From: Salinisphaera sp. Q1T1-3
GTDB lineage: Bacteria > Pseudomonadota > Gammaproteobacteria > Nevskiales > Salinisphaeraceae
Reading direction: 5' to 3'
NCBI RefSeq assembly: GCF_003602005.1
Contig: NZ_QZWD01000009.1
Location: 1 to 64,000 of the forward strand
DNA length: 64,000 nt
The translations under genes and the position numbers were made by a program. Positions 2,757-58,900 of the stretch are shown piece after piece (position 1 is the stretch's first letter; each line of letters starts with the position of its first letter). A model generated the notes under the pieces. That model saw nothing but the letters and a program-made list of their open reading frames with translations. It was not told where the DNA came from and did not search any database.

Positions 2757-3053
2757 TAGGGCCTGTTGATGTGTCGTGCGAGTCCGCGCCAAGTGCGCCC
2801 TGAAATTGACGATGGGCGGCAAGATGAGGCATGGCACGCATAACATGTCATTCTGCGCCAGCGTGCTGGAACACTGGATTGCCGTCGTGTTTTTGATTTT
2901 GGAGCGCTTGTCCCTTTGGGTTGGGCCACAAATCCCGCCCGGCGGCGTTGCGAGCCTTGATCGTGGCACGCCACGATCGGCAACTCGCGCCTTGCCGGAC
3001 ATGCTGCGGCCTTTCGACGAAAAGGCGCTCGAACGAAGCATCAACAGACCCTG
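2757..3053 (+). repeat. F1 repeat, copy A (MITE-like)
   Basis: About 297 bases bounded by AGGGCCTGTTGATG on the left and CATCAACAGACCCT on the right, which are inverted copies with one mismatch. The similarity continues inwards as TCGT-CGAG on both sides. The left end lies in a CTAG tetranucleotide at 2756-2759; at the right end the expected CTA has become CTG. The body shares long stretches with copies at 6471, 16188, 34011 and 58670, including a perfect inner palindrome (GATCGTGGC-AC-GCCACGATC). Open frames inside are not conserved between copies, so it is read as non-coding. It fills the space between the DUF971 gene and the PEP-CTERM gene. Confidence 0.85.
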
Positions 3054-3270
3054 GGAACGCTCGCACACCGGGGCGTCATATCCAGGGCATGTCGGCATTG
3101 CTGACACGTGTCATCACCAACCGTCGATGGAGGCGGGCCCGTCGCCTGACAACGAGTTCGCCTTGTGCAATCAGGCTTGGCGCGGTATGTGATGCTGCCG
3201 ATATGGCGGCCGTTCATCCCGGAATCCATGTCGATTTTTCTTACAAGTTGCGGCCGGATCTAAAAAATAT

Positions 3271-3286
3271 CCAATTAAAACATTGG
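3271..3286. promoter_or_regulatory. Dyad CCAAT-N6-ATTGG upstream of the sigma-54 site
   Basis: A five-base inverted repeat separated by six bases lies in an AT-rich stretch ending 10 bases before the sigma-54 promoter. AT-rich dyads here could bind an activator or a bending protein, but I recognise no specific consensus. Confidence 0.3.
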
Positions 3287-3295
3287 TTTATGTTT

Positions 3296-3310
3296 TGGCA
3301 CGCATCCTGC
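3296..3310 (+). promoter_or_regulatory. Sigma-54 (RpoN) type promoter of the PEP-CTERM gene
   Basis: TGGCACGCATCCTGC matches the consensus TGGCACG-N4-TTGC at all defined positions but one, with the essential GG (-24) and GC (-12) at the correct spacing. Transcription would begin near 3322, giving a leader of about 37 bases before the ATG at 3359. PEP-CTERM genes in several proteobacteria are known to be controlled by RpoN with the PrsK/PrsR two-component pair, which supports this reading. Confidence 0.7.
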
Positions 3311-3358
3311 GTCGAGCGCTTCGGGACGAGGTTCTTGAACTAAACGAGGCGGGACGAC

Positions 3359-4087
3359 ATGAAGACTCAATTGATGGCAGCGGCGATCGGCGGTGCGATG
3401 TCGCTTTTCAGCGCGAGCGCCTTCGCAACGCCGATTTCCTATACCGATATCGCCAGCGGTTCCGGTGGCGGCCTGAGTTTCAGCGCGAATGCGGGCAGTG
3501 AACTGACCACGCGCACGATCGGTAATGTGACAGGGGCCGGTGTGCGCGGTGGCCCCGGCGGCGACGAACTCGGCATCGGCGAGTCGATTACCGCCTACGG
3601 CGCGAATTTTCTCCTCAACGGGACGTCACTGGCGTTCCTGTTCGATGGCCCGGAATACGGCGACACGCAGGAAATCGCGCGGTTCACGGCAACGTTTGCC
3701 AACGGCGGCACGAGTGTCGCGCGCCTGACCAATATCTACAGCAGCGATGGCGATTCGGATGTCTCGCTGTTCGTCGATGGCACGGAGCGCAATGATCTGG
3801 TCAACAGTGCGACCGAGGCCAGCAGCGATGTCGTCTCCCAGATCGTGCTCGGCGCGCTGTTCGGCGATAACGTACTGTCGTCGCTGAGTTTCGAGGCGGA
3901 GCCGGGTGAGTGCGCGACCGGTAACTGCTACAGCGACTCCGACTATGCGATCGAGAACATCGATGCCACGCGCGTCGATGCCTCGGACGTGCCCGAACCG
4001 GGCACTGTGGCGATGTTCATGATCGGTCTGCTGCTGGTCGGCGGCGGCCTGTTCGCACGCCGCAGTCGTGGTCGTGACTTGATCTGA
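3359..4087 (+). CDS. PEP-CTERM sorting-signal exported protein
   Basis: The 242-residue protein begins with a Sec signal peptide (MKTQLMAAAIGGAMSLFSAS, cleavage after AFA near residue 23). It ends with a textbook PEP-CTERM tail: VPEPG at about residues 212-216, a hydrophobic helix, and an arginine-rich cytoplasmic anchor (ARRSRGRD). This tail is the recognition signal for an EpsH-type exosortase that releases or anchors proteins at the cell surface in exopolysaccharide-producing bacteria. The middle is rich in Gly, Ser, Asp and Thr and resembles the beta-rich surface proteins of this class. It contains one CATGNC pair of cysteines. No exosortase gene lies in the window, so the sorting enzyme must be elsewhere. 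The ribosome site GAGGCGGG precedes the ATG. Confidence 0.88.
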   Translation: MKTQLMAAAIGGAMSLFSASAFATPISYTDIASGSGGGLSFSANAGSELTTRTIGNVTGAGVRGGPGGDELGIGESITAYGANFLLNGTSLAFLFDGPEYGDTQEIARFTATFANGGTSVARLTNIYSSDGDSDVSLFVDGTERNDLVNSATEASSDVVSQIVLGALFGDNVLSSLSFEAEPGECATGNCYSDSDYAIENIDATRVDASDVPEPGTVAMFMIGLLLVGGGLFARRSRGRDLI

Positions 4088-4134
4088 GCGGCGATACCGA
4101 CGTGTCACGAGGGCACGTCGGTCAGGCCCTGGTG

Positions 4135-4170
4135 AGCCGGCTCTCCGCCACGGAGGCCGGCTTTCTTTTT
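4135..4170 (+). terminator. Intrinsic terminator after the PEP-CTERM gene
   Basis: AGCCGGC (4135-4141) pairs with GCCGGCT (4156-4162) around an inner CTCCG-CCA-CGGAG stem and is followed by TTTCTTTTT. It is placed 48 bases after the stop codon. The 200 bases from here to the next start contain nothing else that I recognise. Confidence 0.75.
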
Positions 4171-4370
4171 GGGCTGGGGGCAAGGCGAGGCGTCACGACG
4201 ATGCGTGTGGCGCGTGGCGGAAGGCCCGGTGGTGTCGAGCGCGTTGAACGCGTCCTGCCGGTGTGTGCTGCTCGTGAAGCAACGTCCACGCTTCGATGAC
4301 GAAAACTGAATGTGTCCGCTGATACGGTCGAGCTGGATCAATGATTTATGGCTTGTCAGAGGGCATCGAC

Positions 4371-5438
4371 ATGTCAAGCGACATCGCAGGAAGCGCGCCG
4401 CTCGGGGGCGCAACGATCGAATCAGGTACGGCAACGGCCACGTACACGCGGGCAGCGGTCGAGACGCCGCGTACGCTTGTCGTGCATGTCGGGCTGCCGA
4501 AGGCAGCCAGTTCCTATCTGCACGTGGATGTTTTTCCTCAGGTGATGGGCGGGCATTACGTCATGCCCGGGGCCGCCAATGCGAAGAAATCGGCCTATCG
4601 GTTCCCGCGCAATCGTTTCGGCGTACGCCGCTTTTCCGACGCTTTCCAGAAGGATGCGGCGTTCTGGGCGGCGCATGGCCAGGCCTTTCTGCGTCAGTAC
4701 ATGGGCCTGGCCGATTTCGAGACGACGAAACCGCGCTCGCTGCTGATTTCCGACGAGGCCGTGACGCGTGTCAACCATTACGGCGTGCGCAACATGCCCG
4801 CCGCCTTCGATCCGGGTGCGCTGCGTGCCAATCTGCGCGGGCTCTACGACAGCGCGCGTGGCCTCGGCTTCGACCGCGTGCGCCTGATGTTGATGACGCG
4901 CCGGCAGGATACGTTGCTCGCGGCCAGCTATGTCCAGCAGTCGCGCAAGATCCCGCGGGCCTCGCAGGCCGATTTCGAGCGACGCGTGCAGACTCTGCTG
5001 TCACGTTCGAACGACGACCTGAGCCGGCAGTTCTTCGGTATCGACTACGGGCGGCTTTTTGATTGTTTCGCCGATGTGGTCGGCGCGGAGAACGTCAGCG
5101 TGATGCCGATCGAGCTGATCGGGCCCGAGTTCGATGTCTTCATCGACGAGATGCGCCGCGTGCTCGATGTCGACAATACCCACCTCGACCTGTCTCAGGC
5201 GCCGGTCAATGCGCGTTCGCGTACGGCCAACCGCTGGGGGTTGCGCCCGCTGCTGCTTTACAAATCGCGCCATAGTCGGGTCCAGCTCACGGTGCCGACG
5301 CGTCTGAGTGGCCGGGCCTCCGAGATCGAGTTGACCGAACCGCTGGCCGCGGCTATCCGCGACCACTTCGACAGCGAGAATCGGCGCCTGGCTGAGATGA
5401 CCGGCCTGGATCTCGCCGCCTACGGTTACCACGAGTGA
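4371..5438 (+). CDS. Sulfotransferase-fold protein
   Basis: The 355-residue product carries the two PAPS-contact signatures of the sulfotransferase fold. The first is a P-loop-like 5'-phosphosulfate loop near residue 40 (VVHVGLPKAASSYLH). The second is a strand-helix block near residue 180 (LMLMTRRQDTLLAASYVQ) in which Arg and Ser would bind the 3'-phosphate. Members transfer sulfate to sugars or other acceptors; the acceptor here is unknown. No sulfate-activating genes are nearby. The ATG at 4371 is chosen because AGAGGG lies seven bases upstream; an in-frame ATG at 4341 has no ribosome site. It converges with the SDR gene across a GC-rich hairpin. Confidence 0.6.
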   Translation: MSSDIAGSAPLGGATIESGTATATYTRAAVETPRTLVVHVGLPKAASSYLHVDVFPQVMGGHYVMPGAANAKKSAYRFPRNRFGVRRFSDAFQKDAAFWAAHGQAFLRQYMGLADFETTKPRSLLISDEAVTRVNHYGVRNMPAAFDPGALRANLRGLYDSARGLGFDRVRLMLMTRRQDTLLAASYVQQSRKIPRASQADFERRVQTLLSRSNDDLSRQFFGIDYGRLFDCFADVVGAENVSVMPIELIGPEFDVFIDEMRRVLDVDNTHLDLSQAPVNARSRTANRWGLRPLLLYKSRHSRVQLTVPTRLSGRASEIELTEPLAAAIRDHFDSENRRLAEMTGLDLAAYGYHE

Positions 5439-5449
5439 TCGGTCGTCGC

Positions 5450-5468
5450 CGCCCGGGCAGCCCGGGCG
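5450..5468. terminator. GC hairpin between convergent genes
   Basis: CGCCCGGGC and GCCCGGGCG form a perfect nine-base-pair palindrome with a one-base centre. It lies in the 36-base gap between the convergent sulfotransferase and SDR genes. It lacks a T-tract, so termination is inferred only from position. Confidence 0.4.
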
Positions 5469-5474
5469 CGCGCC

Positions 5475-6245
5475 TCAGCCCCAGCCGGCGTCGACGAAGT
5501 ATTCGTGGGCGGTGCACATCGCACTGTCGTCGGCGGCCAGGAAAAGCACGGTCGGAGCCACATCTGCCGGTGCGAGATGCTGTTTCAGGCACTGTATTTC
5601 GGCCAGTCGCGTCTTGTCCTCGGGCGTAATCCATTTTTCGAGCTGGCGTTGTGTCAGCACCGCCCCGGGGATGACCGTGTTCACGCGGATATGGTCGCCG
5701 CCCAGGTCGCGTGCCATGCTTCGTGTCAGGCCATGCACGGCTGCCTTGGCGGTCGTGTAGCCGGGCATGTTGCCGAGGCCGACCTTCCAACTGATCGAGC
5801 CGAAATTGATGATCGAGCCGCCGCCGGCCGAGGCCATGCCGGGCGCGGCGGCCTGGATAGCGAAGAACTGAGGCCTGAGGTTGATGGCCATGCGCTCGTC
5901 CCAGTCGTCCGGCGAGACGTCGCGCCAGTCGTGTCGATCATCGTTGGCAGCATTGTTGATCAACACACGGATGGGGCCGTGTGCGGCCTCGAACTCCCGA
6001 ATACAGCCCTGCAATGCGGTGATATCACGGATATCGCAGTGGCTGTAACTGACCCGATGGGCCGATGACTCGGCCGTGAGTCTGTCGACCAGGGCACGAC
6101 TGGCCGTGTCGTCGATATCGATGAAATGCACGATTGCGTTCTGGCGCGCGAAGGCCGTGACGAGACTCGCGCCGATACCGCTGCCACCGCCGGTGATGAA
6201 CACGGGGCGGTCTGCCAGGCTGGGGTAGATCGCCGATGAGTGCAT
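5475..6245 (-). CDS. Short-chain dehydrogenase, similar to D-xylose 1-dehydrogenase
   Basis: The 256-residue protein is a classical SDR: cofactor motif TGGGSGIG (about residues 18-25), NNAAND, and the Ser-Tyr-Lys catalytic set in INFGSISW and YTTAK. Aspartate in FIDIDD at the end of the second strand favours NAD+. Several blocks match Caulobacter XylB-type xylose dehydrogenases (start SSAIYPSL, NNAxNDDRH, INFGSISW, KWxTPE, CTxHEYxxDAGW), enzymes that oxidise aldopentoses or related sugars to lactones. No other Weimberg-pathway genes are nearby, so the substrate is inferred from the family. It is a single-gene unit ending at a hairpin shared with the convergent neighbour. Confidence 0.8.
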   Translation of the reverse strand: MHSSAIYPSLADRPVFITGGGSGIGASLVTAFARQNAIVHFIDIDDTASRALVDRLTAESSAHRVSYSHCDIRDITALQGCIREFEAAHGPIRVLINNAANDDRHDWRDVSPDDWDERMAINLRPQFFAIQAAAPGMASAGGGSIINFGSISWKVGLGNMPGYTTAKAAVHGLTRSMARDLGGDHIRVNTVIPGAVLTQRQLEKWITPEDKTRLAEIQCLKQHLAPADVAPTVLFLAADDSAMCTAHEYFVDAGWG

Positions 6246-6470
6246 GTGCGGTCCTTGTCTCGTGCGCGGGCTGCATGGCCCGATGCGTTATGAAAGATAA
6301 GAGATGTCCATGTCCAACCCGAGCGCGGCCGCCAAAACCGTGCCGATACGCAGGCGGTGCAGGTGAGCCCATACGCGCGAGGCCGGGGCGTACGCCCATT
6401 GGACGCGGTGGTTTCGAGACATTCTCGTATGTCGAACATTCACGGCGAAAGACGGCTTTCGTCGGAGCCG

Positions 6471-6761
6471 TTCGGCCGGTTGCTCCGGTCCGAAGCCAAG
6501 CGCTGTTCTGCGGCAAGACGAGGCGTAGCAGGCATAGCGTGTCATTCTGCGCCAGCCTGCTGGAACGCTGTATTGCCGTCGTGTTCTTGATTTTGGGGCG
6601 CTTGTCCCTTGGGGTTGGGCCGCCCATGAAACTCGACGATGGGCGCCCGGCGGCGTTGCGCGTCTGGATCGCGGCACGCCACGATCGGCCACTCGCGTCT
6701 TGCCGGACACACGGCGGTCTCTCGACGAAAAGGCGCTCGAACGAAACCTCAACAGGCCCTA
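6471..6761 (+). repeat. F1 repeat, copy B
   Basis: The right end is well kept (CGAACGAAACCTCAACAGGCCCTA, finishing in CTAG at 6759-6762), while the left end is degenerate (CGGCCGGTTG near 6473). The body matches copy C most closely, sharing CTGCGGCAAGACGAGGCGTAG and GTCATTCTGCGCCAGC. It lies downstream of the MscS gene, 60 bases from its stop. The remaining 225 bases of this gap (6246-6470) belong to the region upstream of the SDR gene and show no feature that I can identify. Confidence 0.8.
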
Positions 6762-6821
6762 GCGTGCGGGGCCAGATGAAACGACAGGGCCGAGCGGGGC
6801 GGCCCGGCCGACAATGCGTCG

Positions 6822-7955
6822 TCAGAAGCCGTCTTCGGAACCCGGCGACGGGTCCGGCGGCGGGCGATCGCCGATCTCTTCGCGATCGGCCCAGGCCGCC
6901 CGCTGACGCGGCAGGTGCTGTGGATAATGTTCGGTGGCAAAGGCCAGCATGTGTTCCCGGACCCGACACCGGAAATGCCAGAGCGTGATCGAATCCCGGG
7001 CGCTGAGTAGAAACCGGATCTTCTTGGTGCGCTCGGTCGCATCGACGACCTGGGTATGACCGATCCGGCGATCCCAGTCGGCATCGGTGCGCAACAGCCG
7101 GTCGAACTCGGCGCGTAGCGGGGCGACCGGCATCGCGTAGTCGACCCAGATGAAGACCTCACCGAACAGATTGGCGGTCTGTCGTGTCCAGTTCTCGAAG
7201 GGATTCTCCACGAACCACTGCAACGGCACGATCAGCCGTCGCATGTCCCAGGCGCGTAGTACCACGTAGGTCGAGGTGATGTCCTCGACCCAGCACCAGT
7301 TGCCCTCGACCTTGAGCACGTCCTCGATCCGGAACGGCTGTGAGAGCGCAATCTGCAGACCGGCCAGCAGATTGCCGATGACCGGGCGGGCGGCGAAGCC
7401 GAGGATCAGACCGCCGATGCCGGCCGAGGCGAGCAGGCTGGTGCCCAACTGCTGGATGGAGGGAAAGGTCATCAGCGCCGCGGCCAGGCCGATGATCGCG
7501 ATCAGGACAGCGAGCCCGCGGCTGATGAAGCGCGCCTGGGTCTCGAGCTTGCGCGCCGAATGATGCTTGCCCTCCACGGCGGGATTCAGTCCGACAATGA
7601 TGTCGCCGATCGCCCGTGTGGCCCGCAGTGCCGCCCAGGTCAGGGCCAGGATCAGGCACAGGCTCGTGACATGACGTATGACCGCGATCCAGGGCAGGTT
7701 CTGGGTATGGCCCTGCCAGGCCAGTTGCAGCACGAACAGAAAGATGACGGTGCCGCCTGCCCGGCTGCAGTCATTGATGCACTGGTGGGCGACTGGATGG
7801 GTACGGGTCAGGCGACGCAGCAATGCCACGCCGCCGATATAGATCATCAGTACCGTGGTGGCGATCGTCAGTGTGACCGCGGCCATGATCACCCAGTCCC
7901 AGGCCGGCGAGGGCAGGATCTTGTCGAGCAGTTCGACCGGTGCATCCAGGTTCAT
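6822..7955 (-). CDS. MscS-family mechanosensitive channel
   Basis: The 377-residue protein has about four transmembrane helices followed by a cytoplasmic beta domain. The pore-lining helix region near residues 175-210 (LLASAGIGGLILGFAARPVIG) corresponds to MscS TM3, followed by the short beta domain with IALSQPFRIEDVLKVEGNWCWVEDI, a family hallmark. Such channels release solutes on hypo-osmotic shock. The ATG at 7955 is preferred to one at 8081, because the longer form would overlap the antiporter gene and adds a basic, low-complexity leader. It follows that gene on the same strand after 82 bases, suggesting joint expression. Confidence 0.85.
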   Translation of the reverse strand: MNLDAPVELLDKILPSPAWDWVIMAAVTLTIATTVLMIYIGGVALLRRLTRTHPVAHQCINDCSRAGGTVIFLFVLQLAWQGHTQNLPWIAVIRHVTSLCLILALTWAALRATRAIGDIIVGLNPAVEGKHHSARKLETQARFISRGLAVLIAIIGLAAALMTFPSIQQLGTSLLASAGIGGLILGFAARPVIGNLLAGLQIALSQPFRIEDVLKVEGNWCWVEDITSTYVVLRAWDMRRLIVPLQWFVENPFENWTRQTANLFGEVFIWVDYAMPVAPLRAEFDRLLRTDADWDRRIGHTQVVDATERTKKIRFLLSARDSITLWHFRCRVREHMLAFATEHYPQHLPRQRAAWADREEIGDRPPPDPSPGSEDGF

Positions 7956-8037
7956 GCCGATAGATAAGCAAGATTGATGCGCGAATGTCGACTGTGACGG
8001 TCGGGCGCGGACGACGCCGGCCGCCCGCCGGGTGGGA

Positions 8038-9891: not shown

Positions 9892-10125
9892 CGGGCGCCG
9901 TGTTCGTCGGCTCGGGTCGAGCGGGTCTGGGCGGTGCTCACATCGGCCCTCGTCGTTGCATCATCTGGAAGAAATCGTCGTTGCGCGACGATACGGTACC
10001 GGCGCGGCGCCTCGTCCTGCAGTCAGACGATCGTGGGCGCGGGCCGGAAAACGGTCCGACGGTGGCCTGGCACCGTGGTCGCGTGTGCTGTCGCGCCAGA
10101 GCGCGATCAGACGCCACGCGCTTGT

Positions 10126-10602: not shown

Positions 10603-10838
10603 GGCAATCGCCGGGCGGATGGCAGGAATATCGTGTCGCACGAATACGTCGACAGCGCGTGCATGGTTATACGAAACCGGATATGACTCAAGACAAGAAG
10701 CCCGGACCACAGCCGATGCGTACGCCGGGGCGCCCGAGACCGCGTGTTTCACGCGGAACCGGCGATTTCATCCGGATGTCATGCGCCGTCCGCGATAATG
10801 CGTCGCATCCACGATCAACCGTGCGACAGGGGCGGCGC

Positions 10839-11957: not shown

Positions 11958-12064
11958 TCGCCGAGTCGCGACCGTGGCCTGCCGTGCGTCACCGATGGGC
12001 GACCGGGATCCCGATTGCCTCGCCACAGACGCTACACTGGGGGCACTGATCGCTCGGGGGACCC

Positions 12065-16187: not shown

Positions 16188-16470
16188 TAGGGCCTGTTGA
16201 TGTGTCGTGCGAGTCCGCGCCAAGTGCTGTCTTGCGGCAAGACGAGGCGTAGTGCGCGCCGTGCCGTCATTCTGCGCCAGCGTGCTAGAACGCTGGATTG
16301 CCGTCGTGTTTTTGATTTTGGGGGCACTTGTCCCGAAGGGTTGGGCCACAAATCCCGCCCGGCGGCGTTGCGAGCCTGGATCGTGGCACGCCACGATCGG
16401 CAACTCGCGCCTTGCCGGACGTGATTTGTGGCGCCAACGCGGCGCTCGAACGAAACCTCAACACGTCCTA
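16188..16470 (+). repeat. F1 repeat, copy C (most complete ends)
   Basis: This 283-base copy has both ends in CTAG (16187-16190 and 16468-16471). The left end reads TAGGGCCTGTTGATG and the right end CCTCAACACGTCCTA. The matching CTAG at both borders suggests either a TA or a CTAG target duplication. The last three bases, CTA, are the reverse complement of the asd stop codon, so the element supplies that stop. The middle contains ATTGCCGTCGTGTTTTTGAT and the inner palindrome GATCGTGGC-AC-GCCACGATC found in the other copies. The C-proximal part has a local change (GTGATTTGTGGCGCCAACGC) that replaces the TTTCGACGAAAAGG of other copies. Confidence 0.87.
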
Positions 16471-17586
16471 GAGCCGGCCGCGCAGAATGGCGAGCATGCG
16501 CTTGAGCGGCTCGGCCGCGCCCCAGAGCAACTGGTCGCCGACCGTATAGGCGGTCAGGTACTGCCCGCCCATGGCCAGTTTGCGCACGCGCCCGACCGGA
16601 ATCGACAGCGTGCCGGAGACCGCGGTCGCGGTGAGCTGTTCGTTGCTGGCCTGCTTTTCGTTCGGGACCAGCTTCACCCACTCATTGTGGCCGGCGATGA
16701 TCGACTCGATCTCGTCGATCGGCAGATCCTCCTTGAGCTTGATCGTGAACGCCTGGGCATGACAGCGCATCGAGCCGATGCGCACGCACAGGCCGTCCAT
16801 CGGGATCGGGGCATCGGTGCGGCCGAGAATCTTGTTCGATTCGGCGCCGGCCTTCCACTCTTCCTTGGACTGGCCGGTGTCGTCGATGATCGAGTCGATC
16901 CAGGGCAGGGCCGAGCCGGCCAGCGGGAATTCGAACTCGTCGACCGGGAAGTCGGCGCTGCGCATGGTATCCGTGATCTTGCGATCAATATCGAGAATCG
17001 CCGAATTCGGCGTGGCCAGCTCGTCGGCGACCGCATCACGCAGCGTGCCCATCTGTACCAGCAGTTCCCGCATGTTGGCCGCCCCGGCGCCGGAGGCGGC
17101 CTGGTAGGTCATGGCCGACATCCACTCGATGAGGTCGCGCTCGAACAGGCCGCCCAGGCCCAGCATCATCAGACTGACCGTGCAGTTGCCGCCACAGAAT
17201 GTCTTCGTGCCCCGGTCCAGCTCGCGGTCGATGACCGCGCGGTTGACCGGGTCGAGCACGATGGTGGCGTCATCGCTCATGCGCAGTTTGCTGGCGGCAT
17301 CGATCCAGTAGCCGTCCCAGCCGGCGTCCCGCAACGGCTGGTAGACCGCGCCCGTGTAGTCGCCTCCCTGACAGGTCACAATGACGTCCATGGCTGCCAG
17401 GGCGTCCAGGTCCTTGGCGTCCTGGAGCGGCGAAACCTCACGACCGATGTCCGGGCCGGGCTGGCCGGCCTGGGAGGTGGAGAAGAAGACCGGTTCCAGG
17501 CCCTCGTAGTCGTTGTCGGCGAGCATGCGTTCCATGAGCACCGAGCCGACCATCCCGCGCCAGCCCACGAATCCGACTTTCAACAT
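16468..17586 (-). CDS. asd: Aspartate-semialdehyde dehydrogenase
   Basis: The enzyme reduces aspartyl phosphate to aspartate semialdehyde with NADPH, the branch point to lysine, diaminopimelate, methionine and threonine. The 372-residue protein is of the gram-negative Asd type: [18 protein letters not shown] at the start, catalytic Cys135 in [11 protein letters not shown], and [21 protein letters not shown]. The ATG at 17586 gives the family N-terminus; an in-frame start seven codons earlier is less likely. The protein end ([12 protein letters not shown]) is normal in length, and its TAG stop lies exactly in the terminal CTAG of repeat copy C. It is divergent from the DUF421 gene. Confidence 0.95.
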
Positions 17587-17685: not shown

Positions 17686-18225
17686 ATGAGTGAATGGTTT
17701 CTCGCCGGGCCCCAGGCCCTCCTCTGGATCGTGGTCTCCACGATCGGAATGTATATTCTGATCATCCTCTGCGCCCGGTTTTCCGGGGTTCGCAGTTTTG
17801 CGGAAATGTCGACGTTCGACATCGTGGTCAGCGTCGCGATCGGCTCGATGGTCGCCAGCGTGGTGGTATCGAAGAATCCGCCCCTGCTCCAGGGCGCGGC
17901 CGCCGTGATCACGCTCTATGCGTTGCAGCTGGCCATCTCGCATGTCCGCAGCATCCGCCGTACGGCGGAGAAAGTCATCGATAACCGGCCGATCTTGCTG
18001 ATGGGCGAGGGTGGTATGATCCGCCACGGCGGACTGCGTGTCGCGCGGGTGACCGAGGATGATTTGCGCACCCATCTGCGTGCAGCCAACGTATCCGATC
18101 CGAGGGCCGTACGGGCCGTGATCATGGAAGGCACCGGCACGATCAACGTGTTGCACGGTGAACACCATGCGCTCACCGACGGCGCCTGGATTCTGCACGG
18201 CGTGCGCGATTACGGCGAAGATTGA
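17686..18225 (+). CDS. DUF421 membrane protein (YetF/YcaP type)
   Basis: The 179-residue protein has three N-terminal transmembrane helices (roughly residues 10-30, 42-62 and 67-85) and a cytoplasmic C-terminal domain. Family landmarks are FAEMSTFDIVVSVAIGSMVAS and IDNRPILLMGEGGMIRHG. DUF421 proteins are inner-membrane proteins of unknown biochemical role. The stop codon TGA lies within the outermost bases of the F2 repeat that follows. It is transcribed away from asd across about 100 bases. Confidence 0.8.
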   Translation: MSEWFLAGPQALLWIVVSTIGMYILIILCARFSGVRSFAEMSTFDIVVSVAIGSMVASVVVSKNPPLLQGAAAVITLYALQLAISHVRSIRRTAEKVIDNRPILLMGEGGMIRHGGLRVARVTEDDLRTHLRAANVSDPRAVRAVIMEGTGTINVLHGEHHALTDGAWILHGVRDYGED

Positions 18226-18400
18226 TCCGGCACCCAAGCAGCTGACGACGTCATCTGTTTCCAACGCCATCGAAAAACAAAAGCTGGCACCTGTCCGTCT
18301 TTTATTTTCAATGGCGTAACGGCCGTTGGCCGTGGCGCGCGTGCTTTCGGACACGCACGCCATCAACCTGAAAAATCATCTATTTTCATGCCGGGTTAAC
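18221..18400 (-). repeat. F2 structured repeat, copy 1
   Basis: Read on the minus strand, this runs from TTAACCCGGCATGAAAATAG to GGTGCCGGATCAAT and matches copy 2 at 26924 along its full length with scattered substitutions. It keeps the GAAA-loop hairpin, the CACGGCC/GGCCGTT hairpin, the CCATTGAAAATAAAA inverted pair and the CAGATGACGTCGTCAGCTG dyad, although the arms have drifted. The outer GTGTTATT ends are lost. It lies between the DUF421 gene, whose stop it overlaps, and the next gene. Confidence 0.8.
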
Positions 18401-18466
18401 CAATGGGTCCGGCGCCCGGGGGATGGGCGCGAGCGACGAATCGATACATTCATCAGGGAGAAGTGC

Positions 18467-25624: not shown

Positions 25625-26926
25625 ATGGCGGAGCAAACACGTATCGTGGTCGTCGGCGGTGGCGCCGGCGGGCTGGAACTGGTCACCAAGCTGGGCCGCA
25701 AGCTCGGCGGTAAGGGCAAGACCGATGTGGTGCTGGTCGATGCCAAGCCGACGCACATCTGGAAACCGTTGTTGCACGAGGTGGCCACCGGCGCGCTCGA
25801 CCAGAGCCTGGACGAGGTCTCCTATCCGGCACATGCCCGTACCCATGGCTATCGTTATCAGCTGGGCGCGCTCACCGGGCTTGACCGCGAGGCCCGCAAG
25901 ATCCGGCTCGCCCCGATCCACGACGAACAGGGCACGCAGATCCTGGCCGAGCGCGAGTTGTCCTACGATTATCTCGTCCTGGCGCTGGGCAGTGTCTCCA
26001 ACGATTTCGGGACGCCGGGCGTCGCCGAACACTGCTATTTCCTGGACAGCACCACACAGGCCGAGACGTTCCGCCGTGCGCTGCTCAACACCTTTTTACG
26101 GCATTCCGACGGCGGGCCCGGCCATGCCGGCAAGCTGTCGATCGCGATCGTCGGCGGCGGCGCCACAGGCGTCGAACTGTCAGCCGAGCTGCTTTCGGCG
26201 ACCGAGATGCTTTCGAGCTATGGCTATTCGAAGATCGATAGGCAACAGCTCGATGTGCATCTCATCGAGGCGGCACCCCGTGTTCTGCCGGCGTTGCCCG
26301 AACGCATCGGCACCTCGGTCGCGCGCGAGCTGGAAAATCTGGGCGTGACGATCCATCGGGAGACCATGATCACCTCGGCCGACGAGAACGGGTTTCTCAC
26401 CAAGGCCGGCGAGCGGATCGATGCCGATCTGACCGTCTGGGCGGCCGGTGTGCGCGGCGCCGATATCCTGTCCGAGCTGGGGCTGACGACGCGGCCCAAC
26501 AATCAGATCCGGGTGAACGAGACGCTGGTCAGCGTGGATGACGAGCGCATCTTCGCGATCGGCGACTGTGCCGCGTGCCCGATGGGCGAGGACAAGTGGG
26601 TGCCGCCGCGGGCCCAGTCCGCGCATCAGATGGCCTCGACCGTCTACAAGAATCTGCGTGCCTCGATGGATGGGCGGGCGCTCAAGCCGTTCAAGTATCG
26701 CGACTTCGGCTCGTTGATCTCGTTGGCGCATTTCGATGCGGTCGGTAACCTCATGCGAGGCGCGGCGGGCCGCAGTCTGCTGGTCGAGGGCAAGCTGGCC
26801 AAGCTGTTCTATGTCTCGCTCTATCGGATGCACCAGCGCGCGATTCACGGTGCTTTCAAGACCGCGCTCAAGGCCGTGGTGGACGGTATCAACAACGTGT
26901 TGCGGCCGCGCCTGAAACTGCACTAG
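25625..26926 (+). CDS. ndh: Type II NADH dehydrogenase (NDH-2)
   Basis: NDH-2 is a peripheral membrane flavoenzyme that passes electrons from NADH to quinone without pumping protons. The 433-residue protein has the FAD motif IVVVGGGAGGLELVTKLG at the N-terminus, the NADH motif IAIVGGGATGVELSAELL in the middle, the AAGVRG block and the FAD-closing FAIGDCAACP. The last 50 residues are amphipathic (VSLYRMHQRAIHGAFKTALKAVVD), as expected for the membrane anchor. AAGGATCGGGCA precedes the ATG. Its stop codon TAG is the first TAG of repeat F2 copy 2, within CTAG. It converges on the oxidoreductase at 27285. Confidence 0.93.
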   Translation: MAEQTRIVVVGGGAGGLELVTKLGRKLGGKGKTDVVLVDAKPTHIWKPLLHEVATGALDQSLDEVSYPAHARTHGYRYQLGALTGLDREARKIRLAPIHDEQGTQILAERELSYDYLVLALGSVSNDFGTPGVAEHCYFLDSTTQAETFRRALLNTFLRHSDGGPGHAGKLSIAIVGGGATGVELSAELLSATEMLSSYGYSKIDRQQLDVHLIEAAPRVLPALPERIGTSVARELENLGVTIHRETMITSADENGFLTKAGERIDADLTVWAAGVRGADILSELGLTTRPNNQIRVNETLVSVDDERIFAIGDCAACPMGEDKWVPPRAQSAHQMASTVYKNLRASMDGRALKPFKYRDFGSLISLAHFDAVGNLMRGAAGRSLLVEGKLAKLFYVSLYRMHQRAIHGAFKTALKAVVDGINNVLRPRLKLH

Positions 26927-27120
26927 GGCGTGTTATTAACCCGGCATAAAAATAGATGATTTTTCGGGTTGATAACGCGCGTGTGCGAAAGCACGCGCGC
27001 CACGGCCAAAGGCCGTGAAGCCATTGAAAATAAAAAGACGGACCAGTGCCGGCTTTTATTTTTCGATGGCGTTGAAAACAGCTGACGTCGTCAGCTGTTT
27101 TGGTGCCGGATTAATAACAC
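26924..27120 (+). repeat. F2 structured repeat, copy 2 (most complete)
   Basis: The element begins at the TAG stop of ndh (TAGGGCGTGTTATTAACC) and ends TGCCGGATTAATAACAC. Its 17-base ends (26930-26946 and 27104-27120) are inverted copies with one mismatch. Inside are four consecutive hairpins: a 10-pair stem closed by a GAAA tetraloop (26977-27000), CACGGCC-AAA-GGCCGTG (27001-27017), an A/T-rich pair CCATTGAAAATAAAAAG with CTTTTATTTTTCGATGG (27021-27070), and a perfect 13-pair dyad (27075-27101). It has no reading frame of note. Other copies are at 18221 (opposite strand) and 33003 (truncated). Confidence 0.85.
27075..27101. terminator. Bidirectional terminator inside F2
   Basis: AAAACAGCTGACG and CGTCAGCTGTTTT are perfect 13-base arms around a single T, with A4 on one side and T4 on the other. 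It would stop transcripts from both convergent neighbours, ndh and the renalase-like gene. Confidence 0.65.
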
Positions 27121-27121: not shown

Positions 27122-27221
27122 GCGCGCGCAACCCGACGGGACGGCGGTCATTTTCCGCCATCCGGCGTTGTCGTTCGCGACGCCAGAATGACGGCCGTAC
27201 GCGCGCGATGCCTTGTCTTGC
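27122..27221 (+). repeat. F3 repeat, copy a
   Basis: About 100 bases directly after F2 copy 2 match 33111-33210 in reverse complement, sharing GCGCAACCCGACGGGACGGC, GGCGTTGTCGTTCGCGACGC and CAGAATGACGGCCGTACGCG. It folds locally (GTCG-TTCG-CGAC with a UUCG-type loop, and GGCGG-TCATTTT-CCGCC). The 63 bases from here to the next stop codon show nothing further. Confidence 0.75.
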
Positions 27222-27284
27222 CGCCGCCGGACTGAGTCGCGTGGGGCCAAGGCTCTCCGTACGGCGTTGTCTGCCCCGGCCGGG

Positions 27285-32910: not shown

Positions 32911-33002
32911 GAGCAAGCGCCTGCATCGATGGACCTGTCTTCATGGTACGCAAAGGACGGGCCGGATCGTGCGTGTCGTGTCGCGCTCCCGGCGGGACGC
33001 CC

Positions 33003-33078
33003 TACGGCCGTGAAGCCATTGAAGATGAAAAGACGGACAAGCGCCGGCGTTTATTTTTCGTGCCGGATTAATAACACG
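33003..33078 (+). repeat. F2 structured repeat, copy 3 (truncated)
   Basis: This remnant keeps CCGTGAAGCCATTGAAGATG, AAGACGGAC, TTTATTTTTCG and the right end TGCCGGATTAATAACACG. The left third (with the GAAA-loop hairpin) and the 13-pair dyad before the right end are missing. It lies between the divergent glycerate kinase and cyclotransferase genes, directly before F3 copy b. Confidence 0.75.
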
Positions 33079-33110
33079 TCCCGCGTGCGCCGCGCCGGCG
33101 CTCATTTTTT

Positions 33111-33340
33111 GCAAGACAAGGCATCGGGCGCGTACGGCCGTCATTCTGGCGTCGCGAACGACAACGCCGGATGGCAGAAAAATGACCGCCGTCCCGTCGG
33201 GTTGCGCGCAAAAACCGGCCATGCGGCGTTGCACGGCTTGACCTTGGCATGAATGACCAGGGTCGGCGCCCTGTGCCTTGCCTGGCCGGTTTTCGGGCGG
33301 CAACGCGGTCAGGTCAGGTGCGACGTGTTAACAGGCCCTA
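33111..33340 (-). repeat. F3 repeat, copy b, with a terminal TAGGGCCTGTTAACACG end
   Basis: Bases 33111-33210 are the reverse complement of the F3 sequence at 27122 with few changes. From 33211 to 33340 the sequence is not shared with copy a. It ends ACGTGTTAACAGGCCCTA inside CTAG (33338-33341), the same kind of terminus as the F1 family. F3 may therefore be part of a larger element of which only this copy keeps the end. The next gene starts 37 bases later. Confidence 0.65.
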
Positions 33341-33376
33341 GAATGGTCGCCCTGCGGCCTACGACAAGCGTTTCGA

Positions 33377-34010: not shown

Positions 34011-34324
34011 TACGGCCGGTTGAGGTTTCGTTCGAGCGCCTTTTCGTCGAGAGGCCGTAGTGTGTCCGGCAAGACGCGAGTCGCCGTATCGTGGCGTGCC
34101 ACGATCAAGGCTGGCAACGCCGCCGGGCGCCCATCGTCGATTTTTCATGGGCGGCCCACCCCGAAGGGACAAGCGCCCCAGAATCAAGAACACGACGGCA
34201 ATCCAGCGTTGTCGCTCGCGGGTGCAGCATGGCGGCACGGCGCGCACGACGCCTCGTCTTGCCGCCCATCGTCAATTTCAGGGCGCGCTTGGCGCGGATT
34301 CGCACGAAACCTCAACACGCCCTA
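34011..34324 (-). repeat. F1 repeat, copy D (inverted)
   Basis: This 314-base copy lies opposite to A-C. Its right end reads GAAACCTCAACACGCCCTA and its left end TACGGCCGGTTGAGGTTTCG. It is closest to copy E, with GCCCTGAAATTGACGATGGG on the minus strand and TCGACGATGGGCGCCCGGC in both. The terminal CTA at 34322-34324 provides the TAG stop of the chorismatase gene. It lies between the convergent cyclotransferase and chorismatase genes. The 121 bases between the cyclotransferase stop and its left end have no feature that I recognise. Confidence 0.85.
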
Positions 34325-35281
34325 GGCGGCTCTGAGGTGGGCCTCGACTTCCACGAGCAGTTCGTCACGACAGACGGTGGCCGCCAGCGCGCCGAGCGGC
34401 ACGTCCGGCAGATGTGCGGCTGCCCGGGCGAGCAGTGCGGGGGCGTCTGCCGGGCGACGGACATAGAGTTTCAGACAGGCCAGATCGGCGAGTCGGTGGT
34501 GCCCGATGTGCGGTGTCGCCGCGGCGATCACCGCGGCGACGTTCGCCAGAGCCTCGTCGAGCTGAGCCGGTGCATCGCCGACATGACGGCTCTCGTGGCC
34601 GACGATGGCGGCGGTGCCGGAAACGAGCAGGTATCGGGCGTGGCCGACGGTCATCACGCCGGCCCGGGCGAAGGCCGGCGGCCGGGCCGCATACTGCAAC
34701 GGGTAGGCATACGCGCTGACCTGACGTGGATTCTCGACCGGTATGATCGGCTGCCGGCCGAGCAGGGCGTGCATCCACAGCCCGTGTGCATCGCTGCCGA
34801 CGAGCGTGGCCGGTGGCAACGCAGACCAGTCCAGTTCGGGATCGCTATCGGCTTCGGCCAGCGCCTCGGCCCGGCCGCGACAGAATTGACGATACCGCTG
34901 GGCCTCGCCGACGCCGCCGACCACGTCGGAGAGCACGTGCCAGACCCGCTGAGGGTGCGGCAAGCCGGTCGCCTGCTGGACTGCAAACAGATCGTGATAG
35001 GCCCGACGCGCGATCTCGACGAGTTGTTCGTCCGTGTCGGGCGCATCCAGTCGACGACTCGCCCAGCCGATTCGATCGTTGGCACGCACATGCCAGCCCG
35101 CGATCTGTCGGGCGGTCGTGTGGCCATCGGTGAGCCAGCGCTCGCCCGCCAGGGCCCCGCCCAGGCGGGGCAGCGGTAGATCGGTGCCGTTGAAGGCCAC
35201 ATGGGCCAGCTCGGGACGGTCGACCACGACGTCGTCGAGCGGGGCCCAGTCGATGCCACGGTCCGGCTTGACGACGGTCAT
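34322..35281 (-). CDS. Chorismatase family enzyme (FkbO/Hyg5/XanB2-like)
   Basis: The 319-residue protein resembles the chorismatases that turn chorismate into a (di)hydroxybenzoate or a dihydroxycyclohexadiene acid plus pyruvate. The best evidence is the block NPRQVSAYAYPLQYAARPPAF ARA near residues 190-212, which matches the family's conserved ENPRQ-YPxxYGPRxPSFxRA motif. The C-terminal half is a RidA-like fold (LLVSGTAAIVGHESRHVG, QLDEALANVAAVI). In xanthomonads the relative XanB2 makes 3- and 4-hydroxybenzoate for pigment and ubiquinone. No pigment cluster is visible here. The TAG stop is provided by F1 copy D. It is a stand-alone gene. Confidence 0.75.
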   Translation of the reverse strand: MTVVKPDRGIDWAPLDDVVVDRPELAHVAFNGTDLPLPRLGGALAGERWLTDGHTTARQIAGWHVRANDRIGWASRRLDAPDTDEQLVEIARRAYHDLFAVQQATGLPHPQRVWHVLSDVVGGVGEAQRYRQFCRGRAEALAEADSDPELDWSALPPATLVGSDAHGLWMHALLGRQPIIPVENPRQVSAYAYPLQYAARPPAFARAGVMTVGHARYLLVSGTAAIVGHESRHVGDAPAQLDEALANVAAVIAAATPHIGHHRLADLACLKLYVRRPADAPALLARAAAHLPDVPLGALAATVCRDELLVEVEAHLRAA

Positions 35282-41348: not shown

Positions 41349-41357
41349 TCAACGCGA

Positions 41358-47154: not shown

Positions 47155-47187
47155 TCGTGTCGCGGGCCCGAGCCGGAGGCGCAGCTG

Positions 47188-49010: not shown

Positions 49011-49011
49011 C

Positions 49012-52345: not shown

Positions 52346-52498
52346 GCGGATCCTCGTTCGTCCGGCCGTCTCGATCGCGGCTGGCGCAATTCTTGGATAA
52401 CGTGACATACGCCCGTCTGTCCGACTCTCGGGCGATGGTCCGTAGGCATGCAGTCAGCGTACCATCATGGCTGGCCCAACCCATGAGCGCCTTTTTCC

Positions 52499-53506: not shown

Positions 53507-53513
53507 CAGGCGA

Positions 53514-53537
53514 CGGCCGCCCGGCATCGGGCGGCCG
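53514..53537 (+). terminator. Hairpin after oppF
   Basis: CGGCCGCCCG pairs perfectly with CGGGCGGCCG around the loop GCAT, only seven bases after the oppF stop. There is no run of T, so it is a weak or rho-assisted terminator candidate. Confidence 0.5.
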
Positions 53538-53641
53538 ATTCACCGAGTCGTCGTGCGGGGCGCCTGGACTGCGCCTGATATCCAGCGTGCCTAGCCGGGC
53601 CGGTAGGGCGGTGCTGGGTCATCGCGGATGTTGTCGCGCAC

Positions 53642-53673
53642 AAAAAAGCCGGCCGTGCGCAGACACGACCGAC
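53642..53673 (-). terminator. Intrinsic terminator of the RRM protein gene
   Basis: On the minus strand GTCGGTCGTG pairs with CACGGCCGGC (two wobbles) around a six-base loop and is followed by six T. It lies 47 bases after the RRM gene stop. Confidence 0.8.
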
Positions 53674-53719
53674 TCTTGCGGTCCACCTGAGGCGGGCCGC
53701 TGCAGCAATGCGCGGCTTG

Positions 53720-53995
53720 TTAGAAGCGACGCGGGCCGCGAGGACGCTCTTCGCGCGGACGGGCTTCGTTCACGCGCAGGGTTCGACCCTGAAGGTCCTT
53801 CTGATTCATGCCTTCGATGGCCTCGCGGGCCTCGTTCTCGTTCGGCATTTCGACGAAACCGAAACCGCGGGAGCGGCCGGTCTCGCGATCCATGATCACC
53901 TTCGCGGAGGTGACCTCGCCGAACGCCTCGAACGCGGCGCGCAGGTCGTCGTCCGCGGAGCTCCACGAAAGGTTGCCAACGTAAATATTCGTCAC
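53720..53995 (-). CDS. RRM-type RNA-binding protein
   Basis: The 91-residue protein is a single RNA-recognition motif. RNP2 is IYVGNLSW at residues 4-11, and RNP1 is SRGFGFVEM near residue 42. A basic tail follows (RPREERPRGPRRF). These small proteins bind single-stranded RNA and are induced by cold in cyanobacteria and several proteobacteria. The start is GTG at 53995; a longer frame reaches 54082 but lacks family similarity. A leader of more than 100 bases rich in A/T lies upstream, as is common for cold-regulated genes. Confidence 0.85.
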   Translation of the reverse strand: MTNIYVGNLSWSSADDDLRAAFEAFGEVTSAKVIMDRETGRSRGFGFVEMPNENEAREAIEGMNQKDLQGRTLRVNEARPREERPRGPRRF

Positions 53996-53999
53996 GACT

Positions 54000-54144
54000 G
54001 ATCTCAGCTCATAAAAAGACGTGTCATTACCAAAAAACCGTCCGGACCCGTCAATGACACCAAAACCAAGACCAACGGACAACGGCTCTCAAGCCGCTTT
54101 AATTGAAGTCTACCTGAGTTGAACCCGCCCGCAAGCGGGTTTTT
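54000..54144 (+). ncRNA. Possible small RNA or leader ending in a strong terminator
   Basis: The terminator AACCCGC-CCGCAA-GCGGGTT followed by T (54122-54144) points along the plus strand, but no plus-strand gene precedes it closer than oppF, which has its own hairpin and lies beyond the oppositely oriented RRM gene. A short transcript starting in the AT-rich stretch 54000-54110 would explain it. No promoter stands out clearly. The following 200 bases (54145-54345) contain nothing that I recognise. Confidence 0.3.
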
Positions 54145-54345
54145 CGTCTGGTTTCATGCCAACCGACGAGCGGTTTTGGCAATGCGCTGTGGCCTGTCGT
54201 TGTCAGCACCACTGCGACGAGCTGCCACCGGCACAGATGAACGCACCCGGCCGGTTATGGATGTCCCGGTGGCGAATTGCATTTTTGTGAAAAAAGGTCG
54301 GTGCAGAGCCCTGGCCGAGCGTGCTCATGAGAGGCGTTTCACGGC

Positions 54346-55149
54346 TTACGGATGGACACAGTTCGGATGATTGTCGGCGGCGTAATACAACGACAGAGCC
54401 TGTTCCATGTGCGACTGCAGGGCCTGGATGCGGTTGTCGTTGGAGGGGTGCGTCGACAGGAACGGATTGGGTTTCTGGCCGTCGGATGCCGCACTCATGT
54501 TCTGCCAGAGCTTGACCGATTCGCGCGGATCGAAACCGGCCCGGGCCATGAGCTCGAGCCCGATCAGATCGGCCTCGCTTTCCTGAGCGCGCGAGAATGG
54601 CAACAGAATGCCCACCTGGGCTCCGACACCCAGCGCCGACATGATCGCCTGGCTCGATCCACCGCCGGCGCCGCCGCCCAGGAATGCCGAGAGTGCCGTC
54701 AGGCCGCCCTGCGTGGCGTACTGGTCCGACATGCGCTCGTTCGGATGCTGGGCGATCACGTGGCCCACTTCGTGGCCGATCACGGCGGCGAGCTGGGCGC
54801 CGTTCTTGGCCACCGGCAACAGCCCCGAGTAGACACCGATGTTGCCGCCGGGCAGGGCAAAGGCGTTGATCTGGTCGGACTTGAAGACCTGGATGTCCCA
54901 GGAATCGACCTTGGCGGCTTCGTTGACGCTCGGCACGCTGACGATGGCGCGGGCCACGCATTCGACGAAACGATTGTCGGCGCTGTTGGTATCGGTCGGC
55001 GTCTTCTGCTTGAGTTCGGCGAAGCTCTCGTCGCCCATGGCCGCCATTTTCTGCTGGCCGAAGAACATGAGCTGGTTGCGTCCGGTGGGCGAGGTCGCGC
55101 AGCCGACCAGACCGATCGTCAGCACGGCGCACAGAAGGATCTTTTTCAT
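54346..55149 (-). CDS. M48-family metallopeptidase, outer-membrane lipoprotein type
   Basis: The 267-residue protein has a lipobox (LTIGLVGCATSP) and the zinc motif IGHEVGHVIAQHPNERMS, with the third ligand in EADLIGLELMARAGFDP. NAFALPGGNIGVYSGLLPVAKN is a further family block. It resembles E. coli LoiP (YggG), a peptidase of envelope quality control. The ATG at 55149 begins a standard signal peptide; the upstream frame extends into the uvrD promoter region. It is divergent from uvrD. Confidence 0.9.
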   Translation of the reverse strand: MKKILLCAVLTIGLVGCATSPTGRNQLMFFGQQKMAAMGDESFAELKQKTPTDTNSADNRFVECVARAIVSVPSVNEAAKVDSWDIQVFKSDQINAFALPGGNIGVYSGLLPVAKNGAQLAAVIGHEVGHVIAQHPNERMSDQYATQGGLTALSAFLGGGAGGGSSQAIMSALGVGAQVGILLPFSRAQESEADLIGLELMARAGFDPRESVKLWQNMSAASDGQKPNPFLSTHPSNDNRIQALQSHMEQALSLYYAADNHPNCVHP

Positions 55150-55316
55150 CAATGGTCCCCAGAGGTGACTGTCATCACGCTTGTTCGCATCACGCGGCTT
55201 GTCGGATGGCGGCGCACCGGCCGGCAGCGCCACATCGCAAGACCGATCGCGTATGCAGGCGAGGCTATCAGGGATCGCTGAACGCCGGCCGTGCCCCATT
55301 GGTTACAATGCCGGCC

Positions 55317-57476
<2,160 letters not shown>

Positions 57477-57535
57477 CAGCCAGCCCCGCGCTGCTATGCT
57501 CGCCCGAGGCGTCCATCGCGTCGAAAGGGGGAGCC

Positions 57536-58672
57536 ATGGGGATTCGTTGGCAAGCGCTCGGTCTGCCGGGCTTGATGTTGTTGTGCTCGCTGCTTGCAGT
57601 CGCGTCACCGGCTGCGGCAGCGCCCGAGACCGAAACCGAGAGTGCGACAGCGGCACTGCCGGCCGGCATGGCCGGCCGCACGCTCGAAGTCGGCACCAAG
57701 GTCGCGCCGCCGTTCGTCGAGCGCGGGCCTGACGGTGCGCTCACGGGGCTTTCGATCGCCCTGTGGCAACGGGTCGCCGAGAGGCTCGATCTCGGCACGC
57801 ACTACGTCGAGCGGCCGCTGCCGGCGCTGGTGAGCGGACTGGCGGACGGCTCGCTGGATGTCTCCGTTGCCGCACTGACCGTGACGGAATCGCGCGAGGC
57901 ACGGATCGATTTCAGTTTTCCCTTCTATACCACCGGTCTGGCCATCGCCGTACCGCGTCATGGCGGCAGCCCGATCTGGCTGACGGTCAAACGGTTCTTC
58001 TCGTGGCCGTTCTTCACGGCACTCGCGGCCCTGACGGCGGTGCTTCTGATCGTGGGGGTGTTGATCTGGCTGGCCGAACGGGGCCGCAACGCGGAAGAAT
58101 TCGGCGGCCGGGCGCTCGAAGGCCTCGGGTCCGGGTTCTGGTGGGCAGCCGTCACGATGACGACCGTCGGCTACGGCGACAAATCGCCGCGCACGCCGCT
58201 CGGGCGATTGATCGGTCTGGTCTGGATGTTCGCCGCGATCATCATCATTTCCAGCTTCACCGCCGCCATCGCGACTTCGCTGACGGTCGGCTCGCTTGCC
58301 AGCGGCATTCACGGGGTCAGCGATCTGGCGCATGTCCGCGTCGTCACGGTCGCCGATTCGGCCGCGGTCGAAGCGCTTCGCAATCGCGGCATCCGGTCCA
58401 GCACGCGGGCCAGTCTGGCCGAAGCACTGGATGCCGTGGCCGAAGGGGATGCCGATGCCGCGGTCTACGATGCACCGTTGTTGCGCTATCGCGTCAGCGA
58501 AGACAACGCGCGCGATCTGATGATGGTCGATGGCACGTTCGATCGACAGGACTACGCCTTCGCGCTGGCGCAGGGCAGCCCGCTGCGCGAACCGATCAAC
58601 CGCGCGATTCTGGCCGAGCTGGACAGCAGCGACTGGAACCGGCTGACGCTGCGTTTTCTGGGCAGGCCTTAG
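57536..58672 (+). CDS. Prokaryotic glutamate-receptor-like (GluR0-type) ligand-gated potassium channel
   Basis: The 378-residue protein joins a bipartite periplasmic binding domain to a pore. After a signal peptide (cleaved near residue 29) comes lobe S1 (residues 46-140; KVAPPFVERGPDGALTGLSIALWQRVA, ALTVTESREARIDFSFPFY). Then come helix M1 (about 158-181), a potassium-channel pore loop with the filter TTVGYGD at 209-215, helix M2 with SFTAAIATSLT (240-250), which recalls the SYTANLAAFL of ionotropic glutamate receptors, and lobe S2 (255-370). The order S1-M1-P-M2-S2 is that of Synechocystis GluR0. The ligand, probably an amino acid, is not predictable. AAAGGGGGAG precedes the ATG. Its TAG stop is the first TAG of F1 copy E. 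Confidence 0.85.
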   Translation: MGIRWQALGLPGLMLLCSLLAVASPAAAAPETETESATAALPAGMAGRTLEVGTKVAPPFVERGPDGALTGLSIALWQRVAERLDLGTHYVERPLPALVSGLADGSLDVSVAALTVTESREARIDFSFPFYTTGLAIAVPRHGGSPIWLTVKRFFSWPFFTALAALTAVLLIVGVLIWLAERGRNAEEFGGRALEGLGSGFWWAAVTMTTVGYGDKSPRTPLGRLIGLVWMFAAIIIISSFTAAIATSLTVGSLASGIHGVSDLAHVRVVTVADSAAVEALRNRGIRSSTRASLAEALDAVAEGDADAAVYDAPLLRYRVSEDNARDLMMVDGTFDRQDYAFALAQGSPLREPINRAILAELDSSDWNRLTLRFLGRP

Positions 58673-58900
58673 CGCGTGTTGAGGTTTCGTGCGAGTCCGC
58701 GCCAAGCGCGCCCTGAAATTGACGATGGGCGGCAAGAGGAGGCGTCGTGCGCGCCGTGCAGGCATGCTGCACCCGCAGGCGACAACGCTGGATTGCCGTC
58801 GTGTTCTTGATTTTGGGGCGCTTGTCCCTTCGGGTTGGGCCGCCCATGAAAGAAAAATCGACGATGGGCGCCCGGCGGCGTTGCGAGCCTTGATCGTGGC
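58670..58900 (+). repeat. F1 repeat, copy E (right end lost)
   Basis: The left end TAGCGCGTGTTGAGGTTTCG coincides with the stop codon of the channel gene. About 230 bases match copy D closely, including GCCCTGAAATTGACGATGGG and TCGACGATGGGCGCCCGGCG. Similarity stops within the inner palindrome, at GATCGTGGC followed by GAGCG, and the right inverted end is absent. From 58901 to 59044 lies sequence not shared with the family; it ends with a small hairpin (GCCCGG-CTTTCCT-CCGGGC) before the SPOR gene stop. Confidence 0.82.

Follow-up and report, generated by a model that had tools for sequence, protein, structure and literature searches.

How does a short repeat without a transposase gene come to occupy hundreds of places in a bacterial genome, and why should its interior be conserved? 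The question is raised by a 64,000-nucleotide stretch of Salinisphaera sp. Q1T1-3 (contig NZ_QZWD01000009.1, positions 1 to 64,000; the window hereafter, G000:C59:1-64000 in our numbering), part of a genome assembled into 59 contigs totalling 3.87 Mb, in which an initial annotation had recognized five copies of a family, here called F1, resembling miniature inverted-repeat transposable elements (MITEs). We posit that F1 is a non-autonomous MITE that is probably moved in trans by the transposase of a resident insertion sequence (IS) of the IS5 family, and that its interior is an old conserved module rather than the remainder of a shrunken IS. That F1 is a MITE with a likely IS5-family mobiliser in the same genome is well supported by sequence comparison, namely by ends held in common, hundreds of copies, YTAR borders, and one locus at which the empty site can be seen; its interior is likely selected as a fold.

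The five copies in the window are all real and align over 280-315 bp. They form two sub-types, as had been proposed, the difference being a block in the left arm, and their imperfect inverted ends were confirmed by alignment of the copies and by the pairing of end matches. The claim of four two-ended copies and one without a right end stands in part: copy E has indeed lost its right end, which is replaced by other sequence, but only A, C and D are two-ended, copy B having lost its left end (none within 6 mismatches of 24). The expected lack of coding capacity holds, in that none was seen and the two open reading frames (ORFs) overlapping copies A and B have no Pfam match. Across the genome, the 26-nt end pattern with at most 3 mismatches occurs at 178 + 172 = 350 places, and, because the same search with the pattern read backwards returns 0 + 0, these matches are not due to chance. 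A detailed sample of 464 kb (400 kb of contig C11 plus the window) contains 40 elements, full or partial (35 and 5; one end pair nested inside another was left out), the shortest partial ones being 36 and 45 nt long; 27 have paired ends, of 27 bp. The sampled density extrapolates to about 330 elements per genome, and the 350 good ends to about 175 two-ended copies, while single-copy queries gave 270-294 first-look candidates, the best 7-40 of which were scored per search. The suspicion that the genome could carry hundreds of copies is thus borne out, and padded F1 sequence covers 9.9 of the 464 kb (2.1%). The elements measure about 130-310 bp, have no transposase gene, and cluster, when paired, near 162-164, 218-220, 269-279, 293-298 and 308-310 bp; therefore, deletion forms have themselves multiplied. 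By our own gene calls, which also underlie the stop-codon counts below, none of the 40 lies wholly inside a predicted gene, and 17 fall in convergent gaps, which hold 21% of intergenic bases (binomial 0.002) and 21-23% of free CTAG sites. F1 matches occur in 13/13 other Salinisphaera genomes. The MITE-like character first proposed is evident in these short, many, mostly intergenic copies with inverted ends common to an IS; the family is neither a set of just five copies with ends that do not align nor the remnants of one long known element.

The initial annotation had suggested a search for a complete, transposase-encoding element with F1 ends, and such an element was found. A 0.87-kb IS at locus L041 has a 267-aa ORF without internal stop, bounded by F1-type ends, whose product matches NCBIfam NF033580 (IS5 family) with 248.6 bits (cut-off, 110) and contains the Pfam domains DUF4096 and DDE_Tnp_1; its DDE residues were judged by eye against the motif. 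The ends of the IS, CTAGGCCCTGTTGAGGTTTCG and CTAGGGCCTGTTGATGTTTCA, and the MITE end, CTAGGGC[CG]TGTTGA[TG]GTTTCG, are common over their first 20-21 nt (blastn 20/20, 22/23 and 19/21). Among the eight DDE_Tnp_1 loci in the genome, L041 alone has an intact ORF within F1-type ends: a second IS copy is truncated where a contig ends (L042/L057), L042 being a fragment with one matching end, and in the other loci of this genome searched for F1 ends (L040 and L043-L047) a single match, with 3 mismatches, was found at L046. The closest named relative among the matches listed is ISPa67 (60.0% amino-acid identity), which resembles the partner IS in its DDE transposase, CTAG borders and ends, CTAGGG[TC]CTGTTGCC[AG]TTT, and differs in its end type, CC rather than the A[GT] of the IS in this genome; F1 differs from ISPa67 in having no transposase and a different interior. 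In relatives of the IS from Pseudomonas, Azotobacter, Stutzerimonas and Ventosimonas, the ends read CTAGGG.CTGTT and continue with GCC, CCC or GAC types. An origin of F1 as an internal deletion of its IS was considered and rejected, the best match beyond the ends having an E-value of 0.018 over 18 nt.

The ends of F1 elements vary at positions 11-12, which read AT, AG, CC or AC. Genus-wide, 28/30 copies have both ends of one type, an agreement reached by 0/20000 shuffles. At no more than 1 mismatch, with some sequences falling in both lists, A[GT] and CC ends number 304/3 in this genome (G000), 141/24 in S. hydrothermalis C41B8 (G005), 92/9 in G009, 22/120 in G013, 7/66 in G007, 0/59 in G001, 8/25 in G010, 0/16 in G008, 6/6 in G011, 5/2 in G012, 3/0 in G002, 0/4 in G003, and 0/0 in G004 and G006. 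The resident IS is of A[GT] type in G000 and G005 and of CC type in G001 (remnants), G002, G004 and G006, agreeing with the MITE end type in G000, G005 and G001. Outside the genus, an IS and a MITE that are both of AC type share one plasmid of Azotobacter chroococcum, and in two Halomonas strains IS and MITE are likewise both of AC type. On these comparisons, the end type agrees with that of the resident IS in several lineages, though not in all. F1 could instead spread by another route, such as a REP-type (repetitive extragenic palindromic) or other single-strand transposase or recombination, with its IS-like ends incidental. Hairpins are read by single-strand transposases, and in several genomes with MITEs no related transposase was found; nevertheless, this route is highly improbable given the 20-21 nt in common with the IS at both ends, the same YTAR borders for IS and F1, and the joint change of IS and MITE ends in several lineages.

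Borders were read in 41 two-ended copies, 27 from this genome and 14 from relatives. TA stands at the left border in 26, at the right in 19, and on both sides in 11, of which 10 read YTAR; the borders are mostly CTAG. Because the first base of F1 is G, TA plus this base gives a TAG stop codon on either flank, and 11/40 sampled elements provide a neighboring gene with its stop, among them three of the five window copies (C, D and E). No special homing to stops is needed to explain this share, because 20/64 (31%) of free non-coding CTAG sites already lie at stops; the verdict hinges on CTAG as the target, the expected share at stops being 12% (33/269) with the wider YTAR set. The gene that ends in copy E (57668-58672) has orthologs in 10/13 relatives that terminate 0-3 codons from the same place, seven in TAG and three in TGA; none of the 10 has an F1 end within 900 bp, and the site of copy E is empty in all of them, making this the one locus at which empty and occupied sites can be compared. 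The IS at L041 sits on a CTAG common to two convergent genes, murI and L041:2001-2888, and supplies the TAG stops of both, while in S. hydrothermalis an F1-type MITE occupies the same murI TAG. The stop-restoring first base offers a simple explanation, open to test, for how such elements can occupy stop codons without harm. In many F1 copies one border, but not the other, reads CCAGGG rather than CTAGGG; a repair bias of the Vsr type may be the cause, which is a guess.

Several observations weigh against this account of F1 movement. TA on both sides in only 11/41 copies is about what independent decay of two borders gives, and a duplication of TA is therefore suggested by the consensus and by membership in the IS5 family. 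In this genome, whether one end is AT or AG is uncorrelated with the type of the other (15/27), and the L041 IS itself has one AT-type and one AG-type end. G002 has a CC-type IS and 3 A[GT] but 0 CC ends; G004 and G006, with CC-type ISs, show neither end type at 1 mismatch and are uninformative. Finally, MITEs were found with no related transposase in G003, G007 (one contig), G008, G009, G010 (two queries) and G013 (one query); G011 and G012 have only divergent related transposases.

The conserved interior has a common plan, in which a terminal stem encloses a left arm, a mini-hairpin (CCC-TTC or GAA-GGG) and a right arm. For 30 genus-wide copies RNAalifold gives -210 kcal/mol vs -105 +/- 4 for 20 column shuffles, and a cloverleaf is visible by eye in 13/15 single folds, drawn from six end types. 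When the mini-hairpin and right arm of 25 sequences are aligned without fitting to any structure (A1; the structure scored is the consensus derived from A1 itself), 95.2% of cells are paired and the covariation is 0.379, compared to 0.126 when shuffled and at most 0.085 when slid; A2, the alignment fitted to the model R1 built from A1, has 90.9% paired cells and a covariation of 0.678, compared to 0.174 and at most 0.115. In 22/45 sources R1 finds both arms, which lie some 100 nt from each other on opposite strands; it finds nothing inside the IS in 19 IS loci, the sole match at L041 falling outside the element. Copy C (score in the table) was among the sequences used to build R1, as was the third-family element at 33077-33341; a weak core match at 58878-58969 (minus strand, 26.7 bits) lies in the sequence that replaces the right end of copy E. 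Deviations from pairing favor G.T over A.C (22:10 and 23:8), on the own motif strand of each arm. Selection on the fold is qualified on two counts: the F1 consensus and the third family, F3 (2/15 single folds), show the cloverleaf only in part, and the G.T excess is weak because the model favors G.U. R1 finds no left arm in F1 itself, where the likeness of the two arms was judged by eye. In copies from the same genome the mini-hairpin loop reads CCCTTCGGG or its reverse complement CCCGAAGGG, as if the loop flips.

The strongest rival to selection on the fold is template-switch correction of long imperfect palindromes during replication, of which the fold would be a by-product in selfish elements with an idle interior, an explanation that we regard as possible if somewhat doubtful. 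Such correction would give the matching changes seen in both terminal arms (28/30), and the mini-hairpin loop does occur as TTC and its complement GAA. Unpaired and mismatched positions are conserved too, however, including a T.G pair in 47/47 right-arm and 16/22 left-arm sequences of A2, and these weigh against it because correction should erase such defects; in addition, blocks such as GCGTTGC and GCGCCTTGC persist while the surrounding stems are rewritten. It is unlikely that the core is a structured non-coding RNA (a regulator, terminator or RNase target) that is mobile by chance. The very stable predicted RNA folds, the covariation, and the enrichment in convergent gaps (17/40 vs 21% of both intergenic bases and free CTAG sites) would suit an RNA, but promoter avoidance would give the convergent bias as well; a single transcript does not need the arm motif on opposite strands, as seen in 22/45 sources; the G.T deviations follow the own strand of each arm; and Rfam has 0 matches at gathering in the window and 0 at E 0.1 in 10 loci. 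A single-transcript RNA is accordingly not supported as the leading interpretation, the motif lying on opposite strands in the two arms.

The core extends well beyond Salinisphaera. Isolated matches to one F1 stretch in other genomes proved to be other elements, with different terminal repeats and the same plan, and elements alike in folding occur in plasmid records from Azotobacter (3), Halomonas (1) and Pseudomonas aeruginosa (1). At E 1e-6, with rough E-values from a short calibration and the best 10 matches per genome scored, R1 has matches in 71/369 genomes of Gammaproteobacteria and 56/271 genera; 3 of the 71 are Salinisphaera. Of 27 loci fetched from outside the genus, two are cut by contig ends; flanking inverted repeats score at least 17 in 24 of the 25 evaluable loci and 10 in the other, compared to 6-12 at 44 control positions. 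The terminal repeats of core elements differ between genomes, many starting with TAGGGCCTGTTAACAC or similar and others unlike it. A search for one class-level copy in E. coli genomes gave no match, and carriage by phages was rejected, nothing being found beyond 34-nt matches in 5 mycobacteriophage records. The core could represent a superfamily of structured mobile modules that spans the class: a single conserved cloverleaf, its two hairpin arms inverted and related (GCGTTGC and GCGCCTTG blocks and a fixed T.G pair), that has outlived its terminal repeats, exchanging them in moving from one transposase to another among many gammaproteobacteria, and whose fold is selected because a protein reads it as hairpin DNA or, less likely, as RNA; we see the case for this as evenly balanced. 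Bacterial MITEs are usually described genome by genome, as shrunken ISs, whereas in the present case elements with differing ends, from dozens of genera, are tied together by a single interior fold, so that it is the inside that is conserved. It thus becomes testable whether a folded core aids the persistence of a non-autonomous element, and a covariance model is now available for repeats left blank by annotation.

We propose that the 0.87-kb IS encodes a transposase that recognizes the terminal repeats it has in common with F1 and would move F1 in trans, inserting it into YTAR with presumed duplication of TA. Insertion at TA of an element starting with G would create TAG on either side, and this stop-forming base, together with avoidance of gene bodies, could account for the many copies located at stops and between convergent genes. 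The interior, with its terminal stem, two hairpin arms and the mini-hairpin between them, would be an old conserved module whose arms, folded in single-stranded or cruciform DNA, are most likely recognized by a protein, either the transposase or a host factor. Selection on arm recognition would then preserve the fold even as the terminal repeats change along with the transposases.

Parts of this scheme have precedents. MITEPsy1 of Pseudomonas syringae, for which the IS5-family ISPsy2 is the proposed mover, inserts at CTAG or YTAA; unlike F1, it is 100 nt long, has ends GGAAGGTCTGAAAAAGCC and 6 copies, and its movement was shown, and the passages cited describe no cloverleaf (PMC3189936). In Pseudomonas fluorescens SBW25, R0, R2 and their relatives have hundreds of intergenic copies, two of these families having ends equal to a resident IS, and their tail-to-tail (tail-repeat-tail) excess resembles the bias of F1 for convergent gaps; R0 and R2 differ in being hairpins of 89 and 110 bp, and R200 (320 bp) and R26 (352 bp) are of fitting size (PMC2718517). 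The gammaproteobacterial MITEs QMITE1 and QMITE2 of Coxiella have very stable predicted folds and, in the case of QMITE2, overlap gene ends; according to the sections cited, QMITE2 differs from F1 in its 7-9 bp direct repeats and QMITE1 in carrying DUF1658 frames (PMC5896051). Searches of the open-access literature, with supplements outside their scope, found no such element as F1 and no Salinisphaera MITEs or insertion-sequence repeats, and the F1 end sequences as text occurred in unrelated papers only; its novelty is provisional. ERIC, Correia and similar families are likewise high-copy structured MITE-like repeats, and the left arm may bear some likeness to ERIC.

Table. Coordinates of F1 copies, associated stop codons and related elements (positions in the window unless a contig or locus is named).
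Feature	Coordinates	Strand	Remarks
F1 copy A	2759..3051	+	both ends; left border CTA / GGGCC...GGTCTGTTGA end; right border TGG
F1 copy B	6490..6760 (approximate)	+	left end degraded; right end intact, 6736-6762
F1 copy C	16190..16468	+	both ends
Copy C mini-hairpin and right arm	16330..16440	+	model R1, 110.4 bits
TAG stop at copy C border	16468..16470	-	predicted gene 16468-17586 (-); TA plus first base of copy C
F3 element, same architecture	33077..33341	+	TAGGGCCTGTTAACACGTCGCACC right end; core 33191-33306, 95.9 bits; left boundary approximate
F1 copy D	34013..34322	-	both ends
TAG stop at copy D border	34322..34324	-	predicted gene 34322-35281 (-)
F1 copy E	58672..~58900	+	left end and body; right end lost
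TAG stop at copy E border	58670..58672	+	predicted gene 57668-58672 (+)
Partner IS	contig C58, G000:C58 near 85628-86494 = L041:1139-2005		0.87 kb; F1-type ends

Two further repeat families occur in this genome. F2, found in the window at 26926-27120, 18225-18440 (minus strand) and, in part, 32992-33080, and at L041:3030-3220, contains a palindrome between ends close to CTAGGGCGTGTTATTAACCCGGCA; its copies lie next to fragments of elements that bear the core, and F2 itself has no R1 match. F3, the third family, bears the core and occurs in the window at 27124-27230 and 33077-33341; at the latter site its right end is of the TAGGGCCTGTTAACAC type, like that of many class-level copies, and its left end runs into F2. 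On contig C11, L128:5115-5225 joins the left part of F1 to the right part of F3, a hybrid that suggests recombination between families.
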